Positions 2,166 through 21,248 of a DNA stretch of 64,000 nucleotides are shown piece after piece. Source of the stretch: an uncultured Chloroflexus sp. (lineage in GTDB: Bacteria; Chloroflexota; Chloroflexia; Chloroflexales; Chloroflexaceae); contig NZ_CALFBQ010000008.1 of the NCBI RefSeq assembly GCF_937951745.1, positions 1 through 64,000 of the forward strand. The letters run 5' to 3'. A program made the translations under genes and the position numbers. Under the pieces are notes generated by a model. That model saw only the letters and a program-made list of their open reading frames with translations, did no database searches and was not told where the DNA came from. Numbering within the stretch: the stretch's first letter is position 1; each line of letters starts with the position of its first letter.

Positions 2166-2189
2166 GAGGCCCCCACCGGAACCGCCACC

Positions 2190-2230
2190 GTCCCCGTAGG
2201 GACGCAGCGATGCCGCGCCCCACCCCGCGC
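2190..2230. repeat. Short GTAGGG-type hairpin repeat
   Basis: CGTCCCCGTAGGGACG forms a short hairpin followed by GCAGCGATGCCGCGCC. The arrangement resembles the GTAGGGGCACAGC repeat at 16910-16965. It lies between two convergent genes and could contribute to termination, although no T-tract follows. Confidence 0.4.
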
Positions 2231-2237
2231 CACACCG

Positions 2238-3404: not shown

Positions 3405-3515
3405 TGAGAATACCCGCAAGGCATAACGTTCAGCTACTGACAGCTCCTGATTCGCAACAGACCAGCCGTGTGCCCTAACGCTAGGCAGGAGATACCCGTG
3501 TACTCTTCGCGCTGC

Positions 3516-4292
3516 TTATTCACCGTCAAACTGTTTCCTGTTGTACCATGCACACACTGCCTGCAACGGGCAACCATCATGCCGATCAAGAAAACTGTTA
3601 CGTCCCGGCTGGCGTGAATAGACCCGTCGCGCCGGCGGGCCATCACAGCGGGGCCGCACCAAACAATAACGCACAGCCAATTCATTCAATTGGGCATGGA
3701 AATCAGCCAACAACACCGGATCAGATGGCAATTCCTTGGCAATCGCCTGTTGCACTTGGCCGTAGCTCGCCCGCTCCCACGCAAGCCGATCCGGCGCAAG
3801 ACGAGCAAAGATGCGACGAGTATAAGCGTCAACCACAAACAGGGGATGCTGACCGGCGTAAAGTAAGATCACATCTGCTGTCTCTGGCCCAATCCGCGGC
3901 AACTGTAACAGTTCGGTCCGCAGCGTCGCCGTCGGGCGGCTAAGCATGGTTGCCAGATCGCCATACCGTTCTTGAATAGCGCGGGCCAGCGCGATCAAAC
4001 CGCTCGCCTTTTGCCGGTAAAACGCACAAGGATAGATCAACGCCGCCAACTGCTCGGCTTCAACATCCGCCAATGCCGCCAGATCAAGCAAACCGGCGGC
4101 GTGCATGCGCACCACCGCCGCTTCTACCGTCTCCCAGCGCGTCTGCTGCACCAGCACCGCGCCGATCACTATCTCAAGCTGTGGCCGATCACTAATGATC
4201 GGCCACCACGGACTAGAAGCCTCTGGCCCATACAGCGGGCCGAAGTGAGCCACTAGCCGGTGGTAGATATCAATGATCCGCTGCATCATCAT
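3516..4292 (-). CDS. Endonuclease III-like HhH-GPD DNA glycosylase with interrupted Fe-S motif
   Basis: A base-excision-repair glycosylase of about 258 residues. Visible motifs are QQTRWETV near the N-terminus, a helix-hairpin-helix LPRIGPETADVILLYA and the VVDAYTRRI loop holding the catalytic aspartate. No catalytic Lys is seen at the Nth position, suggesting a monofunctional glycosylase closer to MagIII/MutY-like enzymes. The C-terminal [4Fe-4S] motif is unusual: YCLVRPRC supplies two cysteines, but CPLQAVC follows only after about 24 residues, where the family normally has two. The intervening stretch is basic (ARRVYSRQPGRNSF). Three ATGs lie at 4292, 4289 and 4286; none has a strong ribosome-binding site. 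It is the minus-strand neighbour of chrA with no obvious operon partner. The substrate lesion cannot be told from sequence. Confidence 0.8.
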   Translation of the reverse strand: MMMQRIIDIYHRLVAHFGPLYGPEASSPWWPIISDRPQLEIVIGAVLVQQTRWETVEAAVVRMHAAGLLDLAALADVEAEQLAALIYPCAFYRQKASGLIALARAIQERYGDLATMLSRPTATLRTELLQLPRIGPETADVILLYAGQHPLFVVDAYTRRIFARLAPDRLAWERASYGQVQQAIAKELPSDPVLLADFHAQLNELAVRYCLVRPRCDGPPARRVYSRQPGRNSFLDRHDGCPLQAVCAWYNRKQFDGE

Positions 4293-4364
4293 TGCTAAAC
4301 ACAAAGGCGCGCCGAGAGCACGAGACGCCCATCACCCTCGCTGCGCGCCTTGGCGTTGAACACT

Positions 4365-6515: not shown

Positions 6516-6809
6516 GGTTTCCTCACATCATCATCTGATGCTAACCACCGGCGATACCGGCATGATAACAGGATCTTGCTTGTAACCGCCACTCATGATC
6601 GCATGTGGATTCGAGAGTAGAAAATGACGGCTTGTCTGCATTGTAGCCGCTGAAGGCGAATTTGTCCACTATGCAACTAATTTCTGTGCGATTCCCGCCC
6701 GATCCGTGTCAATCCGTCCTATCCGTGCGCATCTGTTTCCTATCCCCCACGTCACCACTCCTGCTATAATAGCCGCGATATCCAACGTTGCACCGGCTCA
6801 GCACATGGC
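6516..6809. other. Divergent intergenic region with ATCCGTG repeat and extended -10 promoter
   Basis: Between the divergent glgP and the gene at 6810. At 6701-6740 there is a cluster of ATCCGTG words (three, two of them imperfect), a repeat family also seen near 45027 and 52781. At 6762-6770 the sequence TGCTATAAT is a good extended -10 element for the plus-strand gene; no good -35 is visible. A tiny ATG-GCA-TGA frame at 6805 overlaps the start codon at 6810. Confidence 0.5.
6765..6770 (+). promoter_or_regulatory. Extended -10 promoter element
   Basis: TG-C-TATAAT, an extended -10, lies 40 bases before the ATG at 6810. The same TGCTATAAT word precedes the tRNA pair and murF in this window. 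Confidence 0.55.
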
Positions 6810-8777
6810 ATGAACCATCTTCTCACCAGTCACTGGGCAATCGAGTTGCCGAGCGATCATTCTACGGCCCAGTTTGCCGCTCACGAGTTGCGCCGTGCCC
6901 TCCAACGGATGGGAGGGCCGGTGTTGCCAATCACCGGCGCTGCCGCCGGCCCGCGCATCGCGTTGCGCCACGGTCCCGACGGTGATGGCTTTGTGCGCAT
7001 GGCCGATGAGCGCGGTCTGGTGTTGATCGGTGAAGGGCCGCGCGGCTTGCTCTACGCGGTCTATAGCTTACTAGAAGCGTTGGGATGGCGTTGGATTGGC
7101 CCCGGCCCCGCCGATGAGCATGTGCCGCGCTGGGCCCAAATTCGCTTGCCTGCCGCAACGGTTGCCGAGCAACCAGCATTCGCGCGCCGCGGGTTGGTGA
7201 TCGGGCACGATCTCTTTCTCGCGCAGGCCGAAGCGTGGATCGCATGGGCGGCGCGGGCACGACTCAACACGATCTTCGTTCATACCATTGGCACCAGCGG
7301 GATGCCGCTCGGTGCATGCCGCTGGCGCTACTGGCAGCAACGCCGCCAACGACTCTGGCCGCTGATCGAAGAACGCGGCTTACGCCTCGAAATCGGCGGC
7401 CATCATCTGCGCGACGCCGTGCCACGTCAGCTCTTCCGCCAGCAACCCGATCTGTTCCGTCACGATGGTCGCCGGCGGGTGACCAGCGGCAACCCTTGCC
7501 CGACCAACCCAGCCACGCAAGCTATCGTGCGCGATTGGGCGCGTGGGTTGTTCGCCGCCGAACCCAACGCCAGCGTGTATCACCTCTGGCCAGAAGACCG
7601 ACTCGGCGGCGGCTGGTGTGTATGTTCGCGTTGCGCTGCACTCTCGCCGTCTGATCAGTCCTTGATCCTTGTCAATGTAATGGCCGCGGCCTTGGCCGAA
7701 TGCAACCCTACAGCCCGTATTTCCTTCCTCGCCTACCACGACACCTTTGCCCCGCCGCAGCAGATCGCGCCGGCAGTCAATGTCGAAGTGGTGATTGCGC
7801 CACGCCAACGCTCGTATGCCGCCGGGATCAGCGACACAACCAACCCGGTCAACGGGCCGCTGGCCGAGCAGATTGCCGCCTTGCGCGTCTCCTTCCCTGC
7901 TGGCGCGAGCATGTTTGAGTACTACCTCGACGGAATTTTGTTCAAATCGGCTTTGCCGCCGCTCGGCCCGACCATCGCCGCCGATCTGCGCGCCTACTAC
8001 GAGTGGGGGCTTGACGGCGTTCACGTTTTGCTAACTGGCGACCGGCCATGGCTAGCGGTTGGCCCCAACCCGCACAGCTTCGCGGCGCTGGCATGGCAAC
8101 CGCAACGCGAATCGGCGGCGCTGCGCGGTGAATACGCTGCGACCCGCGCCCCTGCTACAGCGGCATTGCTCGACACGGCCTACGCCGCCCTAGAGACGGC
8201 GTGGCGGCATGCCCTTGCCATCAAGCCCGCCGACGTGCGCCGCCAACACGACGGCCACCGGCGCGACCCGGTTGCGCACCCGCCGCGCGACATCCTCGAC
8301 AGCTATGATACGCCGCCGCCCCACTGCGAGCAGCGACTGGCAGCGCTGCACGAGGCGCTGGACGCGCTGCCCGCCGGCGAAGCAGCACTGGCCGCCGCGC
8401 AACACACTGCCGTCGCTGAGCAAGCCGCGCTCGCCGCCGATGCCGCCGAATGGTCAGCGAGTGCGTTGCTGCTCCGCTTTCTCGCTGCTCGCCAAGAAGC
8501 AGCGGTGGTGCAAGCGCGCCGCGCACCGCTGGCCCGCCAACGACAAGCACTCGCCGCCGCCCGCGCCGCCCACACCGATCTGCTCAACTGGGCCGCCCGC
8601 CACGTCCCACCGCCGGCCCGCGCCGGCCATCGCCTGCTGCGCATGTTGCTCGCGCTGCACCTCGATCAACTTGAGAGCCGCATTGCGCTGCCGTGGCGCA
8701 GCGCGCGGCTACGCTGGCAACGCTGGCGCGAATTGGTGCTGTTGTTGGCAAGATTGTGGTGGCAATGGCAGAGGTGA
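6810..8777 (+). CDS. DUF4838-type glycosidase-like protein with GH67/GH20-like N-terminal domain
   Basis: The 655-residue protein has no signal peptide. Residues 1-110 resemble the alpha/beta domain preceding catalytic domains of alpha-glucuronidases and hexosaminidases (FAAHELRRALQRMGG, then GPRGLLYAVYSLLEALGWRW). Residues about 125-430 fit DUF4838, a TIM-barrel-like domain: RGLVIGHD, RARLNTIFVH, then YHLWPEDRLGGGWCVCSRC with a conserved WPED and a CxxC, and FLAYHDTFAPP. The final 200 residues are Ala/Arg-rich helices without a recognised family. DUF4838 proteins are presumed carbohydrate-active, but the reaction is unproven; acidic residues of WPED or the EYYLDG segment could be catalytic. 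Codon use in the last third is highly GC-rich. It is monocistronic, preceded by an extended -10 element, and has no clear Shine-Dalgarno sequence. Confidence 0.7.
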   Translation: MNHLLTSHWAIELPSDHSTAQFAAHELRRALQRMGGPVLPITGAAAGPRIALRHGPDGDGFVRMADERGLVLIGEGPRGLLYAVYSLLEALGWRWIGPGPADEHVPRWAQIRLPAATVAEQPAFARRGLVIGHDLFLAQAEAWIAWAARARLNTIFVHTIGTSGMPLGACRWRYWQQRRQRLWPLIEERGLRLEIGGHHLRDAVPRQLFRQQPDLFRHDGRRRVTSGNPCPTNPATQAIVRDWARGLFAAEPNASVYHLWPEDRLGGGWCVCSRCAALSPSDQSLILVNVMAAALAECNPTARISFLAYHDTFAPPQQIAPAVNVEVVIAPRQRSYAAGISDTTNPVNGPLAEQIAALRVSFPAGASMFEYYLDGILFKSALPPLGPTIAADLRAYYEWGLDGVHVLLTGDRPWLAVGPNPHSFAALAWQPQRESAALRGEYAATRAPATAALLDTAYAALETAWRHALAIKPADVRRQHDGHRRDPVAHPPRDILDSYDTPPPHCEQRLAALHEALDALPAGEAALAAAQHTAVAEQAALAADAAEWSASALLLRFLAARQEAAVVQARRAPLARQRQALAAARAAHTDLLNWAARHVPPPARAGHRLLRMLLALHLDQLESRIALPWRSARLRWQRWRELVLLLARLWWQWQR

Positions 8778-8942
8778 TCGAAGGGTAAGAGGAGGCGAGC
8801 AACTCTAGATTTATTCGCCCACTCATCGTAAGATACGCGCTTTAATGTCTGGCGAAAGCCATATGCCTGAGCTGGCTAACCTCGATACATTCGGTCTAAG
8901 GTGCGCAATGAGACCATAGGTTTTAGCTTCCAACAAGACCTT

Positions 8943-9103
8943 CTATGTGCCCCACACGCGCAGACTCGCTCCCGGCGCAATACGGCGCGCCAAAGCGTTA
9001 TCAAGCAGCACGAGCCGGTCTGGATACTCTAACGCCGCCAGTCCCTTAAGCTGATACCAGCCATTCCGAAGGCGTCGTTGGATTGACCGCGCATAGCCAA
9101 TCC
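8943..9103 (-). pseudogene. Possible C-terminal remnant of an unidentified gene
   Basis: On the minus strand a 53-codon frame bounded upstream by TAA ends in TAG at 8943-8945. It contains NGWYQLKGLAALEYPDRL, then VLLDNALARR and a closing SLRVWGT. The composition looks like real protein (mixed hydrophobic and charged, normal codon use for the region) rather than a shadow of another gene, because no gene lies opposite it. It has no start codon or ribosome-binding site and is cut by stops upstream. I cannot assign a family. Confidence 0.3.
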
Positions 9104-9239
9104 GTTACAGAAGGCACATCACAGCCTTTATTCAGACCAATTTGCAATTCTTTTTTAGATAACCTCCGAACTGCATTCATCAACCGACACCTAGCGACAC
9201 CCCGGCAATCCTTCCCGCACCGCCATCCCCCCAACCGGG

Positions 9240-9245
9240 TATAAT
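9240..9245 (+). promoter_or_regulatory. -10 promoter element
   Basis: TATAAT, preceded by CGGG, lies about 30 bases before the preferred start of the next gene. It argues against the in-frame ATG at 9244, which overlaps it. There is no convincing -35 box. Confidence 0.5.
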
Positions 9246-9273
9246 GAACGTGAGGCATTCTACGACAGAGGGT

Positions 9274-9741
9274 ATGATGACCGCTATGAACGATAACTTC
9301 TTTGCTTTTCAATATCACGCCCTCAAGCCACTTGAACGATGGGGCGCCGGGAGCGTGATTGGCGGCGCAGTCTTAGCTTTGCTCCCCGGTTTCTGGCGTC
9401 ACTTCGGCTTACAGGCGATCAGTTGGGGTGTCATTGACTGGCTGCTGGCGATTGCTGGCCGTCGGCAAGCGTTGCTCAAGGCCGAAGATTTGGTTGCCGG
9501 CGATCTCGACGAATCGGTGGCACACGCCGCTGCTGAACGGTTCCGCACCATCTTGCTCGTCAATGCCGGTCTCGACCTGCTTTACATCGGCGCCGGTCTG
9601 TGGCTGCTGCGCACGGCAGGCGATCGTGCCGACCGACGCGGTATGGGCGCTGGCATCCTCGTACAGGGTCTCTTTCTCTTACTCTTTGATAGCATCCTCG
9701 CCGCTGAAATCAACCGGCGTTGGATTCCGCCATCGCCATGA
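9274..9741 (+). CDS. Small four-helix membrane protein, unknown function
   Basis: About 155 residues with four hydrophobic segments: GAGSVIGGAVLALLPGFW, ISWGVIDWLLAIAG, a TILLVNAGLDLLYIGAGLWLL segment and GAGILVQGLFLLLFDSILA. The pattern resembles the DUF6992-like membrane proteins of unknown role. ATGs at 9274, 9277 and 9286 are all possible. An upstream in-frame ATG at 9244 overlaps the -10 box and is less likely. The stop overlaps the start of the methyltransferase gene (ATGA), so the pair is probably co-translated and may act on the same lipid or membrane-associated substrate. That link is inference only. Confidence 0.65.
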   Translation: MMTAMNDNFFAFQYHALKPLERWGAGSVIGGAVLALLPGFWRHFGLQAISWGVIDWLLAIAGRRQALLKAEDLVAGDLDESVAHAAAERFRTILLVNAGLDLLYIGAGLWLLRTAGDRADRRGMGAGILVQGLFLLLFDSILAAEINRRWIPPSP

Positions 9742-10805
9742 TCAACCAACGCATCTTTCCACTGTTGCAATGCCCAACCTGCCGGGTACGTCCGCTCATT
9801 GTCGAAGCCGGTGGCGTGCGTTGCCCACGCTGCCAGACGCTCTACCCCTTCGGCGATGGCTTCATCGACCTGATGCCGCGCGGGGCCGAGTTCGATTACG
9901 TTTCTAAGTACGTCACCGACGAAGAGCAGTTGGCCGCTGAGCTTGACTACCGCGAACTGGCGCCGCCGCTGTTGGCCGCTGGCGTGCGCGACCGCACTCT
10001 GCGCCGCTTGATGCGCTGGCGTAAGAACGATGTGGTGCTGGATAACGGCTGCGGTACCGCCAAGCATGCCGTCTGGAACGCCAAGTATGTCGGGTTGATG
10101 GTAGGTTCCGATCCGGCGACGCTCTTTGCCGATGAAGCGGTGCGCACGGTGACGCTAGCCAAAGCCGATTCGCGTATGTTGCCTTTCGCCGACGGTAGTT
10201 TCGATAAGGTCTTCGCCATCGACATCCTTGAACATTTCCCGCTGCCGGTGATCGATGCCTATCTGGCTGAAACGGCCCGCGTGCTGCGCCCCGGCGGGCG
10301 TATGCTGGCCTTCTCGAACACCCGCGAACGCTCGCCGATCCAACCGGTTATTGACATTAGCCGCCATATCGGTCGCCTATTCGTCAAAGCCGGCGTCTAC
10401 GATTTTGAACGCGAAAAGCTGCGCAAGTCTGACCATATCAAAGCACTCGAAACGTGGGAAGACGTGCTGGCCGCTTTCGAGCGGGCTGGATTACGCCCGG
10501 TGAAAGTCATTTTCTGGAACAGCCTGTTTACAACGTTTGTGGAACATGTGCTGATGAAGCTCGGCGAGGCGATCATCGGGCGCGCACGCGGGCGCAAGGT
10601 AGCCAACAATCTGCCGGCAAGAGTAAGCGCCGGCGCAGCTCGCGAGATCCGCGCGCGCCAGCGTATGCGCGGCTATTTACGCAACAAGGGGCCGGTCTAC
10701 TACGTCTTGCTCGCCGTGACGTTGTTGATGGAGCTTGACCTGTGGCTGTTTGGCTGGATGCGCTGCGGCAGCTACTTTATTCTGGTCGAAAAGCCACGGG
10801 GGTGA
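9738..10805 (+). CDS. SAM-dependent methyltransferase with N-terminal zinc ribbon
   Basis: The 355-residue protein starts with a Trm112-like zinc ribbon, LLQCPTCRVRPL then RCPRCQTLYPF, giving four cysteines. A Rossmann methyltransferase domain follows, with motif I VVLDNGCGTAKHAVW and a later LEHFPLP/ARVLRPGGRMLAFSN pair typical of the type 11 family. After about residue 215 there is an alpha-helical region and two hydrophobic helices near the C-terminus (YYVLLAVTLLMELDLWLFGW), suggesting membrane association. The start at 9738 overlaps the stop of the preceding membrane protein gene. Zinc-ribbon methyltransferases of this kind often modify lipids, sugars or quinone-like compounds, but nothing here fixes the substrate. 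Confidence 0.8.
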   Translation: MINQRIFPLLQCPTCRVRPLIVEAGGVRCPRCQTLYPFGDGFIDLMPRGAEFDYVSKYVTDEEQLAAELDYRELAPPLLAAGVRDRTLRRLMRWRKNDVVLDNGCGTAKHAVWNAKYVGLMVGSDPATLFADEAVRTVTLAKADSRMLPFADGSFDKVFAIDILEHFPLPVIDAYLAETARVLRPGGRMLAFSNTRERSPIQPVIDISRHIGRLFVKAGVYDFEREKLRKSDHIKALETWEDVLAAFERAGLRPVKVIFWNSLFTTFVEHVLMKLGEAIIGRARGRKVANNLPARVSAGAAREIRARQRMRGYLRNKGPVYYVLLAVTLLMELDLWLFGWMRCGSYFILVEKPRG

Positions 10806-10838
10806 GGTTTACCGCCGCAGGCGCAGAGGATGAAGAAT

Positions 10839-10994
10839 AGTCACAAAAAGACGCAAAAGACACAACAATTTTTTGTGTTTCTTGCGTCTCTTCGTGGCTA
10901 TTCAAACAGCAGGGGCTGAAATTGCCACAAACAGACACAAAAACCCTTACCACTCTTTTCGTGTCTTTTGTGTCTCTTCGCGGCTATTCAAACA
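10839..10994. repeat. Two tandem copies of a CACAAAAAGAC/GTCTTTTGTG inverted repeat
   Basis: Two units, 10839-10908 and 10922-10994. Each has a left arm rich in CACAAA and GACACAA and a right arm TTGTGTCTCTTCG, ending in the shared word GGCTATTCAAACA. Each unit can fold back on itself. A related copy lies at 50629-50695. The second unit ends directly before the ribosome-binding site of the gene at 11009. Confidence 0.75.
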
Positions 10995-11008
10995 ATGGAG
11001 CGATCTGA

Positions 11009-12181
11009 ATGATCAGCTACCGGCAACTCACCCCAACCGACTTCGAGCAATTCTGGGCGCTTGACAGCTACGCTTTCGCCCGCCAGTACCACCGTGGTCG
11101 CTACACGCCGGACGTCATCGCCCAACTGCGCGGGTTATTCATTAATGGCGAGCACGTGGCCCAATTGCAGATCATGCCGTTTCAGATGCAGGCCGGCAAC
11201 GGCGAGTTGCCGGTGGGTGCGATCGGCAGCGTAGCGACATGGCCGCAGCATCGCCGGCGCGGCTATGCCGAGCAGCTCTTGCGCCACGCCTGCAACGAAT
11301 TGCGCGAGCGCGGCGCAGTGCTAGCCCTTCTCCACCCCTTCCGCCATGACTTCTACCACCGGCTAGGTTGGGCACTGGCCGGCGAACGGCGCTTGGTGCA
11401 GCCTACCCCGGCCCATCTGCGCGCCTTTCAGTCCGCTCCCGGCGTGTATATCCCCGTCGGCCCCACCCACATCGCCGAACTTGATGTCATCTACCGCGGC
11501 GCGTTGCGCGGGCGCTACGGCCCACTGGCGCGCTCACCGGAATGGTGGCAGGTCGATGTCTTGCAAACGTGGAGCGGCGAACCCTACCACGCCTTCATCT
11601 GGCGCGATGAGCAGGGCAATGGGCGTTCGTACCTGATCTACCGCTTTGAACGCAGCGATAATGGCGACCGCCTTGTCTGCCGCGATATTGTTGCCCTTGA
11701 CCCGCAGGCCCGCGCCCAACTCTTCGTCTTCATCGCCCGCCACGCCGATCAGATCGTCGCCGCCGAGATTCCTACCCCGATTGACGCCCCACTCAATGCG
11801 TTACTACCCGCACCGGCGCCAACCACCGTTGTGCCGCTCTTTATGCAGCGCGTCCTCGACGTGCAACGCCTGCTCAGCCTCTATCCCTTCGCCAACACAA
11901 CAGGCCAGCTTACCATCCAGATCGCCGATGACTGGATCACGGATAACGCCGGACGCTATCAGCTCGCGTGGCACAATGGCCGCACCACCGTCACCCGCCT
12001 CGGCTCCGGTGAGGGAGATCTCGCCTGCACCAGCGCCACCCTTAGCCAACTCCTCAGCCGCTACCTCCGCCCCCGCACCGCCGCCGCTTTCGGCCTGCTC
12101 AGCGTAAGCGACCGGCGTGCGCTGGCCCTGCTCGAACAGGCGCTGGCCGGCTTGCCGCCGTTTTGCGGTGATTATTGGTAG
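11009..12181 (+). CDS. GNAT acetyltransferase, Eis-like with C-terminal SCP2-type domain
   Basis: The 390-residue protein has the tripartite Eis layout. The N-terminal GNAT domain carries the acetyl-CoA loop VGAIGSVATWPQHRRRGYAEQLL (V..V.P..RR.G.A). A second GNAT-like domain follows, and the C-terminal sterol-carrier-like domain has QLTIQIADDW. Eis proteins acetylate amines, including aminoglycosides and peptides or proteins. Environmental members are mostly uncharacterised, so the substrate here is unknown. The HPFRHDFYHRLGW segment is typical of the family's second catalytic helix region. A GGAGCG ribosome-binding site lies 7 bases before the ATG. The gene follows two hairpin repeats and precedes a glycosyltransferase on the same strand. 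Confidence 0.85.
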   Translation: MISYRQLTPTDFEQFWALDSYAFARQYHRGRYTPDVIAQLRGLFINGEHVAQLQIMPFQMQAGNGELPVGAIGSVATWPQHRRRGYAEQLLRHACNELRERGAVLALLHPFRHDFYHRLGWALAGERRLVQPTPAHLRAFQSAPGVYIPVGPTHIAELDVIYRGALRGRYGPLARSPEWWQVDVLQTWSGEPYHAFIWRDEQGNGRSYLIYRFERSDNGDRLVCRDIVALDPQARAQLFVFIARHADQIVAAEIPTPIDAPLNALLPAPAPTTVVPLFMQRVLDVQRLLSLYPFANTTGQLTIQIADDWITDNAGRYQLAWHNGRTTVTRLGSGEGDLACTSATLSQLLSRYLRPRTAAAFGLLSVSDRRALALLEQALAGLPPFCGDYW

Positions 12182-12275
12182 AGGCTCAACCCATTCCCTC
12201 ATTGACACTCTCGCCAATCTGTGCCAAGATCGAGCGGTTGCGTGAAGGTTGGCCGCTGGATGGAGTTTTATCACT

Positions 12276-13319
12276 ATGCTGCGCCCACTCTATGTCTCGC
12301 CGCTTGGTCGCGGCGGCGTCGATTTTGGCATTCAGAATATCACCCGCGCCGTGCAAGGCGCCGGTTTGTCGCCGCAGTTGCTGCGCTTGCCAGAACTGTA
12401 CAACTTTCTACCTATGCTCATTCCTAATACGTTGCCCGCCGATGTGGCCCGCCGCTTCGATATTGTGCAGGGCCGCTCGCGGGTTGCATTTAGCCTGCGC
12501 GGGTATGGTTTGCCGGTGGTAACGACGGTACACCACCTCACCACCGACCCGGCTCTACAACCCTACAGCTCGTTGGCCCAGCGTCTCTTCTACCGGCTGG
12601 TCGAGTCACGCTACGATGGCATGTCCATCGCCTACGCCGATGCGGTGGTCTGCGTCAGCCGCTACACCCAGCGCATGGTGGAGATGACCTACGGACGCCG
12701 TGATACAGTGCTGATTTATGACGGCATTGATACTGATGTTTTTGTGCCACCGCCGGGTATGGTTCGCCGCGACGATGGCTTGCCGCCGAGTAATGCCCGC
12801 ATCCGCCTGCTCTTTGTCGGCAATCGTACCCGCCGCAAAGGGTTCGATCTGCTGCCCCGAATTATGGATCGGCTGCCGGAGGACTACGTACTCTACTACA
12901 CCGGCGGCTTTCAAGGGCGCGATGCCGGCTCGCCCCATCCGCGCATGATCTCAATCGGTTCGCCTGACCGGGCCGGCTTGGTGGCAGCCTACCAGAGCTG
13001 CGATATCTTGCTTTTCCCCTCGCGGCTGGAAGGGTTTGGGATTGTCCCCGCCGAAGCACTGGCCTGTGGCCGTCCGGTGGTGACAACCAACGTTGCCGCG
13101 CTGCCCGAAGTGGTTGACGACGGGCAGAATGGCTTCTTGGTCGCTCGCGACGATGTAATCGGCTACGCCGAAAAGGTGCGCACGCTCGGTGAAGACGCGG
13201 CGCTTCGCCGCCGCTTCGGTGAACACGGGAGAGAGAAGGTTGTCGCTAATTTCGGCTACGGCCCGCTTGGCGAGGGGTTCACGCGGCTGTATACCCGCTT
13301 GTTAGGGCGCGAGGGATGA
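12276..13319 (+). CDS. Family GT4 glycosyltransferase
   Basis: The 347-residue GT-B fold enzyme begins with the N-terminal domain (SPLGRGGVDFGIQNITRAVQ). It then shows the family 4 hallmarks in the C-terminal domain: RLLFVGNRTRRKGFDLL for nucleotide binding, and FPSRLEGFGIVPAEALACGRPVV holding the EX7E motif. It probably moves a sugar from an NDP-sugar to a lipid or polysaccharide at the cytoplasmic face of the membrane. The ATG at 12276 follows GGAG by 11 bases; an upstream in-frame TTG at 12249 is less likely. There are no neighbouring polysaccharide genes, so the acceptor cannot be inferred. Confidence 0.9.
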   Translation: MLRPLYVSPLGRGGVDFGIQNITRAVQGAGLSPQLLRLPELYNFLPMLIPNTLPADVARRFDIVQGRSRVAFSLRGYGLPVVTTVHHLTTDPALQPYSSLAQRLFYRLVESRYDGMSIAYADAVVCVSRYTQRMVEMTYGRRDTVLIYDGIDTDVFVPPPGMVRRDDGLPPSNARIRLLFVGNRTRRKGFDLLPRIMDRLPEDYVLYYTGGFQGRDAGSPHPRMISIGSPDRAGLVAAYQSCDILLFPSRLEGFGIVPAEALACGRPVVTTNVAALPEVVDDGQNGFLVARDDVIGYAEKVRTLGEDAALRRRFGEHGREKVVANFGYGPLGEGFTRLYTRLLGREG

Positions 13320-13322
13320 TCT

Positions 13323-13434
13323 AACGCAAAGGATGCGGAGAGCGCAAAGCCCACCAAGATATTGTGAGATTGGGCTAGAAGTGTCCTTGTGCCGCCTCCA
13401 TACCAAACCTTCGCGCTCTCTGCGCCTTTGCGTT
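13323..13434. repeat. Long inverted repeat with GCAAAGG/CCTTTGC arms
   Basis: The left arm is at 13323-13349 (starts AACGCAAAGG). The right arm is at 13409-13434 (ends CCTTTGCGTT) and is nearly its reverse complement, with about 60 bases between. It sits between the convergent GT4 and lgt genes and may help end both transcripts. The type is related to the GCGAAGGCGCAGAGA word at 50601-50616. Confidence 0.7.
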
Positions 13435-13483
13435 TACCCCTTTGCAACCTTAGCGTCTTTGTGTGTACTCCTTCGCGCCTTCC

Positions 13484-14371
13484 TTATCGCGGCTCGGTAA
13501 TTACCGTGCCGGCAAATGGCCGCCGGTGGTTGAGGAAGAGCAAAATCGCGCACAGCACAATCGCGATCACGCTCACCAACTGCGCTACCCGAATACTGCC
13601 CTCGCACGAACCGCCAACCCCGCTCGTGCATAAGCTATCGATCCGCAACCCTTCAATCCAAAATCGCCCACTTGAATAGATGATTCCGTACAAAAACAGC
13701 AGATCACCCGGATTGAGCCGGCGCCGTTCGGGCGGAGCTAAGCGACCAAACCGGCGATCAAGCCAGAGCAATAAGCCCACTCCGACCAGATTCCACACCG
13801 ATTCGTAGAGAAAGGTCGGATGGAAGAGGGTTGTAATCGGATAGGTTGTGAGATCGTTGTACGGCGGTACCCGATATTCGGGATCGATCCGCAACCCGAA
13901 TGGCAAATCGGTCGGGCGGCCATAGGCTTCTTGATTAAAAAAATTTCCCCACCGTCCAATGCTCTGGGCCAGCAAGAAACCGGGCACACAGACATCGAGC
14001 CAATCCCAATACGGCAATTTAGCGTAGCGCGTATAAATCACGGTCGAGAGCAGCGCGCCGATAATCGCGCCATGGATCGCGATCCCGCCAGTGGTGAGGT
14101 TGAACGCGCTCCATGGATTAGGCGCGAACCGTTCCCACTCAAAGGCGACGTAATAGATCCGCGCGCCGGAAATGCCGAGGATCAAACCTAACATCAACTG
14201 GTTCCAGACGTGATCGGGGTGATAGCCGCGCGCAACCGCCCGCCGCGACGCCAGTAGGGCCGCAATCAACGCCCCGGTCATGATGATTGCGCCATACCAG
14301 CGCACCACGATCGGGAACCCAAACAGGGTAAAGCTTATCAAAAATGGATCGTCAGGTGGGTAGAGAACCAT
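13484..14371 (-). CDS. lgt: Prolipoprotein diacylglyceryl transferase Lgt
   Basis: The 295-residue membrane enzyme moves diacylglycerol from phosphatidylglycerol to the lipobox cysteine of prolipoproteins. Family signatures are visible: an early WYGAIIMTGALIAALLA segment, GGIAIHGAIIGALL with the essential His, the Lgt signature SIGRWGNFFNQEAYG, and HPTFLYES. Seven hydrophobic segments fit. The ATG at 14371 has GGAG five bases upstream; the in-frame codons further upstream are not part of the gene. It lies 49 bases after purQ and is probably co-transcribed with the kinase and purQ. The window itself encodes two lipoproteins (21755 and 49545). Confidence 0.95.
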   Translation of the reverse strand: MVLYPPDDPFLISFTLFGFPIVVRWYGAIIMTGALIAALLASRRAVARGYHPDHVWNQLMLGLILGISGARIYYVAFEWERFAPNPWSAFNLTTGGIAIHGAIIGALLSTVIYTRYAKLPYWDWLDVCVPGFLLAQSIGRWGNFFNQEAYGRPTDLPFGLRIDPEYRVPPYNDLTTYPITTLFHPTFLYESVWNLVGVGLLLWLDRRFGRLAPPERRRLNPGDLLFLYGIIYSSGRFWIEGLRIDSLCTSGVGGSCEGSIRVAQLVSVIAIVLCAILLFLNHRRPFAGTVITEPR

Positions 14372-14420: not shown

Positions 14421-15185
14421 CTACAACGACGCCGCATAGCGCACTGCGTTGCGGAAGATTTGCAAACCGTCACCCTCCCGCCGTGCGGGTTCGCGCGTCC
14501 AGCGTGGATGCTGGTGCGGCAACACCGCATTTTCCGGGTGCGGCATCAGGCCCAACACATTGCCCTGCGCATTGCACAAGCCGGCAATGTTGTGCGGCGA
14601 GCCATTGGGATTGGCCGGATAACCCTCGCCAACATAGCGCAGCGCCACCAAGCCAGCGGCTTCCAATTCAGCTAACGTTGCCTGATCACGCACCGCGATC
14701 CGGCCCTCGCCGTGAGCGACCGGCACTTCGATCGGGCGTTCGATACCGGAGGTAAACAAGCAACGGCTGTTACTTACCGCTTCCAACTGCACCCAGCGAC
14801 ATTCAAACTGACACGACTCATTCGTCGTGAGTGTGACCCGCGGCGCTTGGCGGGTGGGGCCGGGCAACAAGCCAGCCTTGACCAACACCTGAAACCCGTT
14901 GCAAATCCCGATCACCGGGCGACCATCAACCACAAATCGCTCTAACTCCTCGCCAAGGCGATGGATCAGATCAACCGCCAACAACCGGCCAGCGCCGAGA
15001 TGATCGCCATACGAAAAGCCGCCGGGGATGACTAATAATGCATAATCGGCCAACTTTACCGAACCTTCGGCAATTCGGTTGACATGCACCCGTTCCGGAC
15101 GCGCGCCGGCCAACTCGCAGGCCAGCGCCGCGTCGGCATCGCGATTGATGCCGGGAGCGCGCAAAATGAGAGCTTTCAGTTCCAC
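14421..15185 (-). CDS. purQ: Phosphoribosylformylglycinamidine synthase, glutaminase subunit PurQ
   Basis: The 254-residue class I glutamine amidotransferase supplies ammonia to PurL in de novo purine synthesis. The catalytic elbow GICNGFQVLVKAGLLPG contains the nucleophilic Cys. The His-Glu pair is in MPHPENAV, and FSYGDHLGAGRLLA is also conserved. It starts with GTG at 15185 (LILRAPGINRDADAA follows) and overlaps the end of the kinase gene by 10 bases. No purL or purS lies beside it, unlike many bacteria, so the complex must be assembled from genes elsewhere. Confidence 0.93.
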   Translation of the reverse strand: MELKALILRAPGINRDADAALACELAGARPERVHVNRIAEGSVKLADYALLVIPGGFSYGDHLGAGRLLAVDLIHRLGEELERFVVDGRPVIGICNGFQVLVKAGLLPGPTRQAPRVTLTTNESCQFECRWVQLEAVSNSRCLFTSGIERPIEVPVAHGEGRIAVRDQATLAELEAAGLVALRYVGEGYPANPNGSPHNIAGLCNAQGNVLGLMPHPENAVLPHQHPRWTREPARREGDGLQIFRNAVRYAASL

Positions 15186-16558
15186 CGAAACTCCATCTCC
15201 ACCTCACCGATCTGGATCAGATCACCCGATTTCAACCGTTGCGGCACATTCGGCGGGATCAAGACCCCGTTAATCCGGGTGCCGTTGGTGCTCTGCTGAT
15301 CGGTGAGGGTATAGTGATCGCCGCGCCGCTCGATAATGGCGTGCAGACGCGAGGCGATCCCACGGTCGTGTTCAGCCAGATCCAATTCAGGAAAGTGAGC
15401 GCGACGCGGATCGCGCCGGCCAATCCGCACCGGCGAGTGGTCGAGCACCATCTCCCAGTGGCGGTAAGGTGAACGGACGATCAAGCGGGCCGGCGGCAAG
15501 ATCGGCGCAGCAGTGGCAACCGGCCCGATTCGTTGTAGCGCGGTACCGCAACCGGCGCAAAACCGGGCCTGCGGCTTATTGACCCTCCCACACTTTTCAC
15601 ACACCACCCCATCTGCTGGCGCCGGCGTGACCGGCGGCGGGGCAACCACCGGCGGCGGGGCCGGGGGAACCACCGGTTTAACTGGCGGCACCGGCGCCAT
15701 CTGCACCGTCGGATCGACATACGGCCTCTTGAGACGCTTGTGCAGCGCCTGCTCAAACTCGGCGCAACTGGCAAACCGCTGCTCGCGTTCGAGACTCATA
15801 GCCCGAATAATAATTGCCTCGGTTTCCGGGGCTACCGAGCGGTTTATGCGCGTGATCTCGCCACGGCGCGGCGGCTGCAACGGGATCGGCGGCATCGCCG
15901 TCAGCAGGTGCAGCATAGTCGCCCCAAGCGCATAAATATCCGAACGGGCATCGGTCTGCCCTTTGCCGTACTGTTCGGGTGGCGCATACCCGGCTGATCC
16001 CATCGCGATCGTGTCTTTCGACTTGCCAATCTTGTGCTTACGAGCCACGCCAAAGTCGATCAGTTTGAGCACGCCGTCCGGGGTTAGGATTACATTTGGC
16101 GGCTTGAGGTCACGGTAGATGATTGGCGGCTGGCGCGTGTGCAGGTAGTGTAACACCCGGCAGAGCTGAATCCCATAGCCGATCACTTGTTGTTCGAGCA
16201 TCGGTGCATTCGCCTCGCGAATCATTGCCTCAAGCGTCTTGCCCGGCACAAACTCCATGATCATCGTCGGGCGACCTTCATACTCGAATAGATCGATCAC
16301 CACCGGCAGATTCGGAAACGAGAGCGAACGCAGCAATTCAGCCTCTTGCAGGAAGAGCTGGCGCGCCTCGAGCAACTCTTCGGCAGTCACCTCACCGGCG
16401 GGTCGCATCTCCTTCAGCGCCCAAATGCTGCCATCACTCACCCGCCGCACACGATAGACCGCACCCATCCCACCTCGCCCGATCAGGTTGAGGATAGTGT
16501 AGGCATCATCAGTGCCACGCACCGTTACATTGTCTGCTAGCCGGTCAAGTGTGAACAT
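15176..16558 (-). CDS. Ser/Thr protein kinase with zinc ribbon and C-terminal FHA domain
   Basis: The 460-residue protein has a Hanks-type kinase domain at residues about 20-285: glycine loop IGRGGMGAVY, Lys in ALKEM, HRD variant YRDLKPPNV, DFG and the APPEQYGKGQT activation segment. A Pro-rich linker follows (about 295-325), then a zinc ribbon CEKCGRVNKPQARFCAGCG. An FHA domain with IGRRDPRRAHFPELDL and TNGTRINGVLI ends the protein. FHA domains bind phosphothreonine, so the kinase may recognise its own phosphorylated partners. There is no transmembrane segment, unlike most PknB-type kinases with extracellular PASTA repeats, so it is cytoplasmic. It overlaps purQ by 10 bases. A TATAAT box lies on the minus strand at 16592-16597. 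There is no obvious Shine-Dalgarno sequence. Confidence 0.93.
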   Translation of the reverse strand: MFTLDRLADNVTVRGTDDAYTILNLIGRGGMGAVYRVRRVSDGSIWALKEMRPAGEVTAEELLEARQLFLQEAELLRSLSFPNLPVVIDLFEYEGRPTMIMEFVPGKTLEAMIREANAPMLEQQVIGYGIQLCRVLHYLHTRQPPIIYRDLKPPNVILTPDGVLKLIDFGVARKHKIGKSKDTIAMGSAGYAPPEQYGKGQTDARSDIYALGATMLHLLTAMPPIPLQPPRRGEITRINRSVAPETEAIIIRAMSLEREQRFASCAEFEQALHKRLKRPYVDPTVQMAPVPPVKPVVPPAPPPVVAPPPVTPAPADGVVCEKCGRVNKPQARFCAGCGTALQRIGPVATAAPILPPARLIVRSPYRHWEMVLDHSPVRIGRRDPRRAHFPELDLAEHDRGIASRLHAIIERRGDHYTLTDQQSTNGTRINGVLIPPNVPQRLKSGDLIQIGEVEMEFRWN

Positions 16559-16597: not shown

Positions 16598-16602
16598 CCA
16601 CC

Positions 16603-16628
16603 CCCCTCTCTTTTCCGTGGGAGAGGGG
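16603..16628. repeat. CCCCTCTC...GAGAGGGG hairpin
   Basis: CCCCTCTC and GAGAGGGG form an 8-bp stem around a 10-base loop. Similar CCCCT/GGGGTGAGGG words occur at about 21391-21430 and 33870-33940, so this is a dispersed intergenic family. Confidence 0.5.
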
Positions 16629-16718
16629 ACACGGGGTACGGTTGTGAGGGGCACACAGTGCAGAGCACGCAAACACCTTACGGCCGTGCGGCGCACATAT
16701 CGCGTCACGCGCATTGCA

Positions 16719-17320
16719 CAGACGGGCCAGCACGGTTGGGATACAGGTCTGTATGCGCCGTTCTAGACTGGTGCGTCCCATCACCCTCTCCTTCTGGCAC
16801 ACGAGGGAGGTCTAGTAAGCGGAGGCTCGGGTTGACACGTCGCGCTCGAATCTCCCTTCAAGGTGGAGGCACACCACAAGGTGGGTCACACCGCACCGGC
16901 CGTATCGTTACACCGTAGGGGCACAGCATACTGTGCCCCCTACAGTACCCCTACGGTGCGGCACACAACGTTCAATACCATAAGGACGGGATACATGCCG
17001 TTGTTCGGCATAAGGACGGTCAATGCATATGCAACGGGACATTACCACCCGGAACCGGCGACGGCCCGGCGCACACCTACACGTGACCCCACAGCCACCC
17101 GTGGTAGCAGTGTCGGGTCATGCGCATCTGACCGTCACACCGCACCGGCCGTAGAGCCGTGCAGACGGGCCAGCACGGTTGGGATACAGGTCTGCGCGGT
17201 TCTAGACCGGTGCGTGCCATCACCCTTTCCTTCTGGCACACGAGGGAGGTCTAGTAATGAGGATGTTTGAACCAGTGCGGAGGTTCAAACAAGGGTTTAC
17301 ACATCGCGCTCGAATCTCTC
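16719..17320. repeat. Degenerate direct repeat pair in a 900-bp noncoding region
   Basis: Copy 1 (16719-16855) and copy 2 (17162-17320) share long blocks: CAGACGGGCCAGCACGGTTG, then GGATACAGGTCTG, then CCTTCTGGCACACGAGGGAG and GCGCTCGAATCTC. Copy 2 carries an insertion containing an inverted GTTTGAACC/GGTTCAAAC pair near 17266-17290. A further 20-base word (GTCACACCGCACCGGCCGTA) occurs at 16885 and 17134, and TAAGGACGG occurs twice near 16980-17030. At 16912-16966 GTAGGGGCACAGC and GTGCCCC make a hairpin. No gene is convincing in 16559-17477. Confidence 0.75.
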
Positions 17321-17422
17321 GTTCCCCGGTGAGGAGCGGGGGCACAAGGGCAAACACCAAATGATACGCAGTAAGTGAGTCTAGTCCGTAGCGAAGACAA
17401 TGGAACCACTCGCACCTAACAG

Positions 17423-17457
17423 AATGACTCCCGCCCCTGATAGGGGCGGGAGTCATT
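17423..17457 (-). terminator. Strong hairpin downstream of aioA
   Basis: A perfect 16-bp stem (AATGACTCCCGCCCCT with its complement) around a 3-base loop, beginning 20 bases past the aioA stop. The T-tract is weak on both strands, but the stem is strong enough to suggest factor-independent termination, possibly in both directions. Confidence 0.75.
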
Positions 17458-17477
17458 TGTGACGCACACCGACTGTA

Positions 17478-20063
17478 TCAACTAAACTTATTCTGCTGGA
17501 GGAAGCTCGCCGTCTGCTTGATGAACGGGATCGCCCCGGCCACCTTACGGACATTGGCTCGCGTTCCTTTGTACCACGGAATGGTTGTCTTTGGATCGGT
17601 ATAACCGGTTGTCAGCGAGTTCGACGTTCCACGCCAGTGGTACATCACCATAAAGATCGAACCCGGTTTCACCGCATCGGTCACGTATGCCATGTATATG
17701 GCATTCCCTTCCTCATTGAAAATCTCGATCAGATCTCCGGACTCGATGTTCAGCTTCTTTGCATCCTCTGGGTTAATCTCTGCATACGGCAGCGGATGCG
17801 TAATCACCCGCTCAGGCAATTGTCGATCGTGGTACGTTGACTGCCAGAGATGCTGGACCCGTCCGGTCGTAACCCAGAAAGGATACTCCTTCGCCTTGTT
17901 ACCTTCCAGATACTTCGCCACCTCAGCGGGATACCCCTCCCAGTCATCCGTGCCGTACCACTTGAACTTACCATCAGCGGTACCGAACTTCACCGTGTAG
18001 CGCCGGAGCGTCCCTACCAACTTCTTCGTCTTCGGATCAAGCCGCACCGGGGTACGGATACCCTCCTGACCAACCTGCTTCAGGAAGGCGTAAGTGACGC
18101 CCTTGTAGTTCTCGGCCTCCAGCTTCGCTTCGTCTTCCTCACTGACTTGATTGTCCGCAAATTCTTCTGAACCTGCGAGGAAGACATCCTCATCGGTCTT
18201 CCAGTTCTTGCCAAACTCAAACTTCGCTGCGACATCATTCTTCTTCTCGGCCCGATAGAGCTTGGCAATCTCTTCACCAACCAACTTGAAGATTTCCCAG
18301 TCAGGCTTCGCCTCTCCGGGTGGATCCATGAACTTCTCGTACAACCGCAACAGACGGCTGTTGCAGTTGATAGACGTCTCGTTCGCCTCACCCCAACCGG
18401 CAGCCGGCAGTACAAGGTGAGCATCGCGCGCAGTTTCGGTCATGTAAATGTCTTGCACAACCATAAAGAGCGCGTCAGGATCGGCATAGAGTGCCTTCAA
18501 GATGGCGTCAATCCGACCTTGAGTCGTGCTTGGCTCACCACTCTCACCTATCGCGCGCGTCAACTTCTTAGTCCGCTCGTGGATGCGCTTGCGGAAAATC
18601 TGGTTGTTTGGCGTCGAGAGGTACGGATCGTTTGCAATGACCCAGTAGAACTTACCTTTCCCGCTAGTGAGGAACTTATCAACATTGACGGGCGGACCAC
18701 CATTGTAGATAGAACCGGGTGTCGGTGATGGTGGACGGACATAACCCTCTTGGTGACCACCTTGGCGACCACAGCCTGTACCGGGCCGACCGATGTTATG
18801 CGTCAAGACGGCGAGCTGGACAAGGGCTGCCACTTGGTCATAATTTTTCATGTTCCAAATGATGCCCTTCTCATAAATGGTCAACGTGCGCCGCTTGAAC
18901 TTGTTCCCCTTTGGCTTTGCAATCCAATCGGCCGCTTGCTCAATTTGTGCCTTCGGCACACCGGTAATGCGCTCAGCTTGGGCCATAAACTCGTCATACT
19001 TCACATCCAGCTTGAGGCTCTTCTTCTTGTAATCCTCGAAGAGCTTCATATCGGTGCGTGCCTCTAGATAGGCTTTATCGTAGTAGCCACGCTCCCAAAC
19101 CACGCGCGCGATCGCGTTGGCCAAGATGTAGTCGGTGCCAAAGTTCGGCTGGAGCAACAGCACCCGATTCTTTGCAGCCGCTTCCGCAACGGTATACGAA
19201 GATGTCTTCCGTGGATCGATAACGATCAGATATCCTGCCTCGGCAGGTTCATCCTTGTCAAACACCTTCTTCTTCTCGGCAACCGTCGATCCTTGAATGT
19301 TCTCAAGAATATGCTGCGTGTAAAGAATGGTCGCCGTTTCGTAAGAGTTCGCTCCCCACAGCACGACAGTATCGGCAAGTCGAGCATCGCTGTAGTCGTA
19401 GTTTAGCTCATGCACACCCCGTTCACGGCTACCCCACACCTCCGAGTTGTAGGCCGGACGGTTGTGGATGGCAATGTGCTTGACCGAGAGCGCAGTGAAA
19501 AACAGCTTACCCGCACCATAGTTGTCTTCAAAACCAGCACCCGAACCGCCGTGGTCATAGCACTTTACGGCGATGTTATCATCGTTCTTGTCACGATCAC
19601 GAATACCCTTAATGATACCTGCCATGAGGGCAAGAGCGTCATCCCAAGTAATGGCTTGGAACTGATCACCTACCCGCAACAAGGGATACGTTAGCCGATC
19701 TTGCGTCCCGCGATCAAGGCTCCACATCGTCAGCGCATTGGAGCCACCGCGGTAGGAGTAATTGCCCTGATTAATCGGACTATTTGTTGCTGGTACAATC
19801 ACAATATTGTACTCTCGACCGTCCTTACCAACTGTCGTCGAGTGCATAGCCTCGGTGTAGCTCTGGCCTTTCAGCACTGCCTGCGGTTTCGTAAAATCGA
19901 CTTTGAACGCATTTTCATCTGCTTTCAAGCCGCCCTGCTCGCCGACCGGCCAAACGTACACCTTGTATCCACAACCGACATTGCAAAACTGGCAGACCGT
20001 GTTGTACTCAGTCGCACTGGTAGGTGGAAGGGGAACTTGATCAAAGCGCGGAAGAATGCTCAT
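17478..20063 (-). CDS. aioA: Arsenite oxidase large (molybdopterin) subunit AioA
   Basis: The 861-residue molybdopterin oxidoreductase oxidises arsenite to arsenate. The N-terminus has CQFCNVGCGYKVYVWP, the CX2CX3C ligand set of the [3Fe-4S] cluster seen in AioA, with a later YSYRGGSNALTMWSLDRG segment. It continues with YDHGGSGAGFEDNYGAGK, HNRPAYNSEVWG near the active site and a C-terminal MPT-binding domain (VTTGRVQHLWQSTYHDRQ and MVMYHWRGTSNSLTTGYTD). It has no signal peptide; in known systems AioA is exported piggyback with the Tat signal on AioB. The ATG has GAGGAG 9 bases upstream and lies 26 bases after aioB. Electrons would pass to AioB and then to a cytochrome c or copper protein. 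No aioX/S/R genes are in the window. The Lys/Glu-rich insert around residues 605-660 is notably more charged than the surrounding protein. Confidence 0.95.
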   Translation of the reverse strand: MSILPRFDQVPLPPTSATEYNTVCQFCNVGCGYKVYVWPVGEQGGLKADENAFKVDFTKPQAVLKGQSYTEAMHSTTVGKDGREYNIVIVPATNSPINQGNYSYRGGSNALTMWSLDRGTQDRLTYPLLRVGDQFQAITWDDALALMAGIIKGIRDRDKNDDNIAVKCYDHGGSGAGFEDNYGAGKLFFTALSVKHIAIHNRPAYNSEVWGSRERGVHELNYDYSDARLADTVVLWGANSYETATILYTQHILENIQGSTVAEKKKVFDKDEPAEAGYLIVIDPRKTSSYTVAEAAAKNRVLLLQPNFGTDYILANAIARVVWERGYYDKAYLEARTDMKLFEDYKKKSLKLDVKYDEFMAQAERITGVPKAQIEQAADWIAKPKGNKFKRRTLTIYEKGIIWNMKNYDQVAALVQLAVLTHNIGRPGTGCGRQGGHQEGYVRPPSPTPGSIYNGGPPVNVDKFLTSGKGKFYWVIANDPYLSTPNNQIFRKRIHERTKKLTRAIGESGEPSTTQGRIDAILKALYADPDALFMVVQDIYMTETARDAHLVLPAAGWGEANETSINCNSRLLRLYEKFMDPPGEAKPDWEIFKLVGEEIAKLYRAEKKNDVAAKFEFGKNWKTDEDVFLAGSEEFADNQVSEEDEAKLEAENYKGVTYAFLKQVGQEGIRTPVRLDPKTKKLVGTLRRYTVKFGTADGKFKWYGTDDWEGYPAEVAKYLEGNKAKEYPFWVTTGRVQHLWQSTYHDRQLPERVITHPLPYAEINPEDAKKLNIESGDLIEIFNEEGNAIYMAYVTDAVKPGSIFMVMYHWRGTSNSLTTGYTDPKTTIPWYKGTRANVRKVAGAIPFIKQTASFLQQNKFS

Positions 20064-20089
20064 AGAGTACCACTCCTCTTGGGTGTTCG

Positions 20090-20596
20090 CTAAATGTTCT
20101 TCGCTCGACCCCAGATAAGCCCATTAACTGCAGTTGCGTAGATATCACCCTTCTTGTCCACGGTTAACGTGATTTGCGGCAACCACGTACTAGCCAAACC
20201 TTGGTACGTCTGGCCCGCTTTGGCTGGATCGAACATTGAGTAGTGACATCTACAGACAAACCGCTCACCTTGGTACTGAATCGGACACCCCATGTGCGTG
20301 CAAACACCCGAGAACGCCACAATGTCATTTTGTGGACCGACACCGCCCAGAGCAGGCTTACCAAGCTTCACCAGAACAGCCGGAGTGTTTGCATCAGGAT
20401 AGTTGAACGTGACCGGCTTGTTAACAGTTAGATCGGCTACATTCCCTACCTTCACCGATTTGTAAGGCAAGCTTGGCGCTAGCCACGGTTTAAGCTTACT
20501 TCCAGCCGCCAGTGCAGCCTTCCCCCACGAGGAAAAAAGGGCTGCTGTCATCGCCATGACCTTCAGAAATCCTCTGCGACTGAGCATTCGTTGCAT
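20090..20596 (-). CDS. aioB: Arsenite oxidase small (Rieske) subunit AioB
   Basis: The 168-residue protein has a Tat signal (LSRRGFLKVMAMTAALF) and a Rieske [2Fe-2S] domain: CTHMGCPI and CRCHYSMFDPAKAG supply two Cys and two His ligands plus the extra cysteine pair that can form a disulfide. It passes electrons from AioA to the respiratory or photosynthetic chain outside the cytoplasmic membrane. The ATG at 20596 has GAGGTG 8 bases upstream; the longer in-frame start at 20644 lies inside the promoter and is rejected. It is the first gene of the aioB-aioA operon, the usual order. Confidence 0.95.
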   Translation of the reverse strand: MQRMLSRRGFLKVMAMTAALFSSWGKAALAAGSKLKPWLAPSLPYKSVKVGNVADLTVNKPVTFNYPDANTPAVLVKLGKPALGGVGPQNDIVAFSGVCTHMGCPIQYQGERFVCRCHYSMFDPAKAGQTYQGLASTWLPQITLTVDKKGDIYATAVNGLIWGRAKNI

Positions 20597-20643
20597 ACCA
20601 TTGCACCTCGCTGTCTTAACTTTTTGCGATCCACAGTGCATCA

Positions 20644-20672
20644 ATATTATCGCATTTCGTTATTTCTGTCAA
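20644..20672 (-). promoter_or_regulatory. Sigma-70-type promoter of aioBA
   Basis: Minus strand: TTGACA at 20672-20667, a 17-base spacer, and TAATAT at 20649-20644. An imperfect inverted repeat (ATTATCG/CGTTATT) lies in the spacer and could be an operator, although this is weak. No GG-N10-GC sigma-54 signature was seen. Confidence 0.65.
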
Positions 20673-21119
20673 TAGGGTTTGAATCAAGTACTCTATGTTC
20701 ACAAAAACCATTTGATAATTTCGATATTATATACTTAACAATAAAAGATTACTCAGGAACATGACTAGACAAACATCTTTTGTCAAACTATTGAGACATA
20801 CGCTAAAACCGCCTTCGTTACAAAATCTCTCTCGTTTCCACATAACCGTTTGGCTATTCCTTACAAAGAAAGTATGAAATGTTCAGAAATAGCATGCTAA
20901 ATGCTCTTACAAGATAATAACACTGCAAAACTGCTCGTTTCATAAAACTGAACTATTTTCTTCCAACCGATATCTTATTTTAAAAAGATGCCATTTGAAA
21001 TTAAAAACACTTTTATTCTTTAATTTTTGATTAAAATATGATAAATGCTAGTACAACTTTCAGTTAGCACTACAATAATGTTAGGATATTGACTCACTCC
21101 ATTGTTACTATGCCTCACC
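20645..21119. other. A+T-rich intergenic region upstream of aioBA
   Basis: About 450 bases that are clearly richer in A and T than anything else in the window, with A and T runs throughout 20690-21060. No reading frame of useful length, tRNA or clear repeat is present. It separates aioBA from the tRNA pair. It may be a curved upstream region or DNA of foreign base composition. Confidence 0.7.
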
Positions 21120-21148
21120 TTGACGAACAACGCAATGGCTGCTATAAT
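21120..21148 (+). promoter_or_regulatory. Consensus promoter of the tRNA pair
   Basis: TTGACG at 21120-21125, a spacer of exactly 17 bases, and TATAAT at 21143-21148 with an upstream TGC (extended -10). The mature tRNA begins 12 bases downstream of the -10 box. Confidence 0.85.
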
Positions 21149-21160
21149 CTGGACTGTCGC

Positions 21161-21248
21161 GCCGAAGTGGCGGAATGGCAGACGCGGCGGTCTCAAAAAC
21201 CGCTGGGGATCAACCCCCGTGTGGGTTCAAGTCCCACCTTCGGCACCA
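21161..21248 (+). tRNA. tRNA-Leu (anticodon CAA), CCA encoded
   Basis: Acceptor arms GCCGAAG and CTTCGGC pair perfectly, followed by A and CCA. The anticodon stem GCGGT/ACCGC encloses loop CTCAAAA, giving anticodon CAA, which reads UUG. The long variable arm (TGGGGATCAACCCCC) and the GTTCAAGTC T-arm fit class II tRNA-Leu. Confidence 0.95.

Follow-up and report, generated by a model that had tools for sequence, protein, structure and literature searches.

The 64,000-nucleotide stretch of Chloroflexus DNA analysed here (the window) carries an arsenite oxidase operon, aioBA, and raises the question of how transcription of such an operon is controlled outside the Proteobacteria. Published accounts place AioXSR and sigma-54 boxes in Proteobacteria alone (PMC3834237, PMC2848651), and it is therefore not surprising that both are absent here. 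Indeed, the same papers already describe Chloroflexus and Thermus aio operons without sigma-54 boxes or AioXSR (PMC2848651, PMC3834237). The window genome (G000) was compared with seven congeners (G001 to G007; eight genus genomes in all) and with related aio loci.

The aioBA operon and its sigma-70-type promoter

Judged from its predicted proteins, the aioBA pair is a canonical arsenite oxidase, with a Mo/3Fe-4S large subunit and a Tat-exported Rieske small subunit (Table 1). Structure searches matched AioA at an E value of about 1e-174 and AioB at about 1e-35. The Pfam Rieske match was scored on a longer mechanical open reading frame (20090-20644), whose listed start at 20644 is the first TTG of the aioB frame; the start of aioB is the ATG at 20596, which opens the Tat signal MQRMLSRRGFLK. 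An imperfect direct repeat of ~100 bp is present in two copies 3' of aioA (16719-16818 and 17162-17257), within the inserted segment described below.

Table 1. Features of the aioBA locus and its right flank, in window coordinates
Feature	Coordinates	Strand	Basis
Inserted segment with aioBA and A+T-rich DNA, ~4.5 kb	16602..21117		site without aioBA in 7/7 congeners
Hairpin 3' of aioA, probable terminator	17423..17457	-	self-complementary match
aioA, arsenite oxidase large subunit (Mo, 3Fe-4S), 861 aa	17478..20063	-	Pfam Molybdopterin, Rieske_3, Molydop_binding
aioB, Rieske small subunit, 168 aa, Tat signal	20090..20596	-	Pfam Rieske, AioB structures
Probable ribosome-binding site GAGGTG, seven bases ahead of ATG 20596	20604..20609	-	read from sequence
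-10 element TAATAT of aioB	20644..20649	-	sequence; identical in G004
-35 element TTGACA of aioB	20667..20672	-	sequence; TTGAC[AG] in 13/14 related aioB upstream regions
A+T-rich upstream DNA, wholly inside the insertion	20673..21117		composition; site comparison
Native tRNA-Leu promoter TTGACG-N17-TATAAT, right junction	21120..21148	+	present in 7/7 congeners
tRNA-Leu(CAA), flanking gene	21161..21248	+	sequence

The original prediction placed a sigma-70-type promoter directly before aioB, and this promoter is present on the minus strand as TTGACA-N17-TAATAT, with 10 of 12 consensus matches and its end 47 nt ahead of the aioB ATG. Taken alone, the match is weak to modest evidence in such A+T-rich DNA: equally good ones turned up in 7% of 400 shuffled versions of the 150 nt ahead of aioB and in 18% of 300 shuffled versions of the 523-nt spacer. 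However, G004 carries a related aioBA copy with identical hexamers and 17-base spacing, at nearly the same distance from the ATG (75 versus 76 nt between the two copies), amid spacer DNA that otherwise shows no alignment above shuffles. Furthermore, 13 of the 14 loci examined (12 Thermaceae and 2 Chloroflexus, the window copy included) have TTGAC[AG] upstream of aioB at a distance of 54 to 85 nt, the exception being L035; L042, L040 and L063 had no usable aioB start and were left out of this comparison. Because the same hexamers and spacing recur in G004 within diverged DNA, and TTGAC[AG] in 13 of the 14 loci, the promoter is convincing.

The gap upstream had been described as strikingly A+T-rich, which it is. 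Its G+C content is 0.305 over 475 bases (20645-21119), compared with a window mean of 0.587 (sd, 0.045 at that stretch size), and it is the sole such stretch in the 64 kb, G+C elsewhere never falling below 0.47. Homology of this DNA to plasmids was considered and rejected, the one match (67 bp, 78%, in Cetobacterium; E 3e-3) being judged chance. Likewise, tblastn with eight Thermaceae ArsR proteins gave no relevant match to a decayed arsR in it.

Sigma-54 and AioXSR in the genus

No sigma-54 box was found in 20597-21119 when up to two mismatches were allowed, in agreement with the original prediction; the best scores there were 6/10 on the coding strand and 7/10 on the other strand. The sigma-54 box scan returned 102 matches with up to two mismatches versus 92 expected, including one perfect match at 51694. 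Single matches mean nothing, since their number is so close to expectation and the perfect one lies in a genome without intact rpoN. In G000, PF04552 matches one rpoN fragment only, with two in-frame TAA stops; it finds nothing in G001 to G006 and a remnant in G007, and a match was obtained in 34 of the 61 genomes searched. One strong sigma-54-activator protein is retained in each of the eight genus genomes. The G000 copy (contig C42:12134-12619 plus flanks), which survives in a genus without sigma-54, has its GAFTGA segment replaced, and no receiver domain was obvious when its sequence was read. With rpoN broken and the activator lacking GAFTGA, a sigma-54 promoter could hardly work in G000.

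The absence of a nearby sensor gene was also confirmed, as neither a two-component nor an ArsR gene adjoins aioBA and no linked aioXSR occurs among the flanking genes. The nearest signalling gene encodes a Ser/Thr kinase (15176-16558), which is native and found at the same site in all eight genus genomes. The window copy thus shares its enzyme family with the AioXSR/sigma-54-controlled aioBA of Proteobacteria but has neither the box, nor an intact rpoN, nor linked AioXSR, and the expectation that arsenite control must differ from that system is borne out.

A Thermaceae-type operon inserted before tRNA-Leu

In G001 to G007, the Ser/Thr kinase gene lies 41 to about 610 nt from the tRNA-Leu promoter with no aio between them. 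Because the two adjoin without aio in all seven congeners, the ~4.5 kb at 16602-21117 is an insertion. By inspection, neither a clear target-site duplication nor a transposase was seen at the G000 junctions. The G004 aioBA occupies another site, between CAAX-protease-like and carboxylase genes (names judged from sequence), which are neighbours without aio in the other seven genus genomes.

Of the 158 genomes in the class, G000 and G004 alone encode AioA of the window type; 11 others have a type that is 45 to 48% identical. Two loci with a 48%-identical aioBA type, in G002 and G006, have a NarL-like regulator gene upstream and a GAF/kinase-like gene 3' of aioA, as read from sequence. In an AioA tree of 28 rows, G000 and G004 form a pair (100/100) that groups with Thermus (100/100), inside the Thermaceae. 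A topology with Thermus as a clade excluding the pair was not rejected (p-AU, 0.411), and positions beside and inside Thermus both fit. Two rows had been dropped before this tree, L056 with a broken aioA frame and L156 with a long branch; in the first tree, with all 30 rows, the pair likewise grouped with Thermus. L056 is from Meiothermus granaticius (4916-7475, with 25 stops in straight translation), has no ArsR gene visible upstream and may be decaying or misassembled.

The G004 copy is probably that of Chloroflexus aggregans. It would share clade and promoter with the window copy but differ in genomic site, its AioA being 88% identical. Transfer of the C. aggregans aioBA from Deinococcus-Thermus has already been suggested (PMC3834237), and entry of a Thermaceae-type aioBA into the Chloroflexus lineage would be the likely direction. 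However, aioA has a G+C content of 0.53 in G000 and 0.515 in G004, versus 0.625 to 0.652 for two Thermus genes that were measured, which does not fit easily with recent direct transfer from a high-G+C Thermus. The two Chloroflexus copies are 88% (AioA) and 82% (AioB) identical, and three host proteins are 84 to 93% identical between these genomes. As this divergence is host-like, two insertions are no more likely than a single early acquisition with later relocation and loss.

Probable loss of the linked repressor and alternative modes of control

Among the nine Thermaceae contigs that extend far enough upstream, eight have a divergent ArsR-type gene before aioB (11 contigs were examined, of which L035 and L038 end too soon), and the encoded proteins have the motif CG-x3-G-x-CFCH in common. 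The exception is the M. granaticius locus, a point against the reading preferred below. A divergent regulator gene is likewise present at 4/4 Thermus plasmid loci. None of the four Chlorobi contigs examined has such a gene. No divergent ArsR gene was found upstream of the window aioB, and no ortholog was found elsewhere in G000, the best genome-wide match to the aio-linked ArsR of Thermus and other Thermaceae being 32% identical. In Thermus thermophilus HB8 pTT27 (L152, 805-2989), ISTth4 lies between arsR and aioB, and the promoter and the repeat described next are intact.

An inverted repeat with the core CGTTTGA-N6-TCAAACG was the best one upstream of aioB in four of eight Thermus loci, and all eight have a repeat like it (10 to 14 of 14 positions). 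Its distance from the start of the -35 element is 17 nt in every case, and it overlaps the -10 element. Other Thermaceae score 7 to 12 of 14 at this position (L035 was not placed), and the score is 6 in both G000 and G004, neither of which has a match exceeding shuffles anywhere else in the 120 nt upstream. Since these Thermus loci also supplied the consensus, which was defined here, their high scores involve some circularity and are not an independent test; the absence of the repeat from the two Chloroflexus copies is one. The TCAA in the half downstream of the -10 is kept in 8/8 Thermus loci, and we know of no role for this half in sigma recognition. The repeat is consequently put forward as a candidate ArsR operator, on its sequence and position. 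Clear dyads upstream of aioB were seen in only two Meiothermus-side relatives (L037 and L039). For T. tengchongensis arsR-aioBA, five other motifs have been listed and their verification called for (PMC8963470, section 17). In our search of open-licence papers, we recognised no description of a Thermus aio operator or of the control of aio expression in Chloroflexus.

The window copy thus has much in common with the arsR-aioBA loci of T. tengchongensis 15Y and T. thermophilus HB8 pTT27, namely, the AioA clade, the TTGAC[AG] -35, a GATA-containing -10 region and the order of aioB and aioA. It differs from them in missing both the divergent ArsR gene and the repeat over the -10, and its -35/-10 spacing is 17 versus 18 in the four Thermus loci scored. 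In T. tengchongensis, aioBA is inducible in strain 15Y, where ArsR is intact, and constitutive in strain 15W, where the linked ArsR is broken by an inversion and the sequence upstream of aioB is identical to that of 15Y (PMC8963470). The window copy likewise has no working linked ArsR but additionally lacks the site over the -10. By analogy with 15W, aioBA is probably constitutive in the window strain.

The remaining proposal of the original prediction was that an unlinked repressor acts on an imperfect inverted repeat in the spacer. The best repeat there scores 8, a value equalled by 35 of 60 dinucleotide shuffles, and is no better than chance; within the core promoter, none reached the threshold. 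An unlinked ArsR-family repressor of the aioB promoter is nevertheless conceivable, because G000 has 11 PF01022 hits, of which two are candidates with a link to arsenic: an ArsR bearing CVCH, encoded next to an ArsP permease, and a fusion of ArsR with ArsC. The latter (contig C68:9300-10300) joins an ArsR domain to an ArsC-like phosphatase domain, as judged from sequence. However, the Thermus-type site is lost from the window copy, and the closest G000 relative of the Thermaceae ArsR is the distant one noted above. The aioB promoter also shares no sequence with the two arsR upstream regions tested (C56 and C68), and operator words shared with five upstream regions (arsR of C56, arsP, ArrX, Ttr and arsR-arsC of C68) were none above shuffles. 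Overall, the original proposal is not supported and such a repressor appears unlikely; the joint absence of ArsR and the repeat suggests, rather, that repressor and operator were lost. It is more doubtful still that the A+T-rich DNA is itself regulatory, as a UP element or by binding an architectural protein. Both Chloroflexus copies have A+T-rich DNA ahead of the promoter (G+C 0.305 across 475 bp in the window, 0.18 to 0.30 across about 125 bp in G004), which would suit such a role, but the two stretches are unequal in length and not recognisably homologous, 101 of 200 shuffles aligning as well. This DNA probably has no specific regulatory role.

The main rival to constitutive transcription is adoption of aioBA by an unlinked host regulator acting on the sigma-70 promoter, since G000 does have other arsenic-related regulators that could act in trans. 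The best example is a system on contig C56 (26500-40500). From 1997 to 14001 of this locus, arsR, arsP and genes for TauE and SBF permeases are followed by an ArrX-like sensor, a NarX-type kinase, a NarL-type regulator and a TtrB/NrfD/TtrA-like Mo enzyme (1084 aa). Compared with known structures, the sensor gave E values of 3.5e-60 for ArrX and 1e-33 for AioX; it keeps the pocket cysteine of AioX/ArrX and is paired with a NarL-type, not an AioR-type, regulator. It is present in G000, G002, G004, G005 and G006 and absent from G001, G003 and G007; aio is present in G000, G002, G004 and G006. The sensor therefore accompanies 4/4 aio-bearing genomes and 1/4 of those without aio, an association that is suggestive but weak, the eight genomes being too few to count. 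However, the sensor system adjoins its own TtrA-like operon, its likely target, and no word above shuffles is common to the aioB core and the DNA upstream of ArrX or Ttr. Adoption by such a host regulator is improbable, about as much so as control by an unlinked ArsR, and the specific case in which the stripped aioBA has been rewired to the ArrX-like sensor, the NarX-type kinase and the NarL-type regulator is slightly less probable again. The C56 locus itself, with an ArrX-type sensor beside a tetrathionate-reductase-like enzyme, is possibly an arsenate respiration locus; a literature search on loci of this type found nothing. The G000 and G004 versions of its ArrX-like protein share 97% identity, above the range of the three host proteins, hinting at exchange of the locus.

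Constitutive transcription is the simplest reading, because repressor and site are gone and a near-consensus promoter is left. A Thermaceae-type aioBA would have entered the Chloroflexus lineage horizontally and been inserted, with its A+T-rich upstream DNA, just before tRNA-Leu. It would have kept a housekeeping (sigma-70/sigma-A type) promoter and lost the divergent ArsR-family regulator together with the CGTTTGA-N6-TCAAACG site over the -10. Transcription by the ordinary RNA polymerase holoenzyme would then most likely be constitutive or close to it. We give somewhat better than even chances that this hot-spring Chloroflexus aioBA is a transferred, regulator-stripped and largely constitutive Thermaceae-type operon.

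The missing sigma-54 box is explained by the loss of sigma-54 in the genus, and the comparison singles out a candidate operator for ArsR-aioBA in Thermus. If the rewiring were true, Chloroflexota would have a sigma-54-free analogue of AioXSR. On the preferred reading of stripping and constitutive transcription, the locus would allow a test of how control fares once a metabolic operon has moved between phyla, the core promoter being retained and the repressor gene and its site lost. The aioBA operon of the window would then be a borrowed gene losing its control, built from known parts, and an operon of a familiar kind that has been stripped of its regulator.
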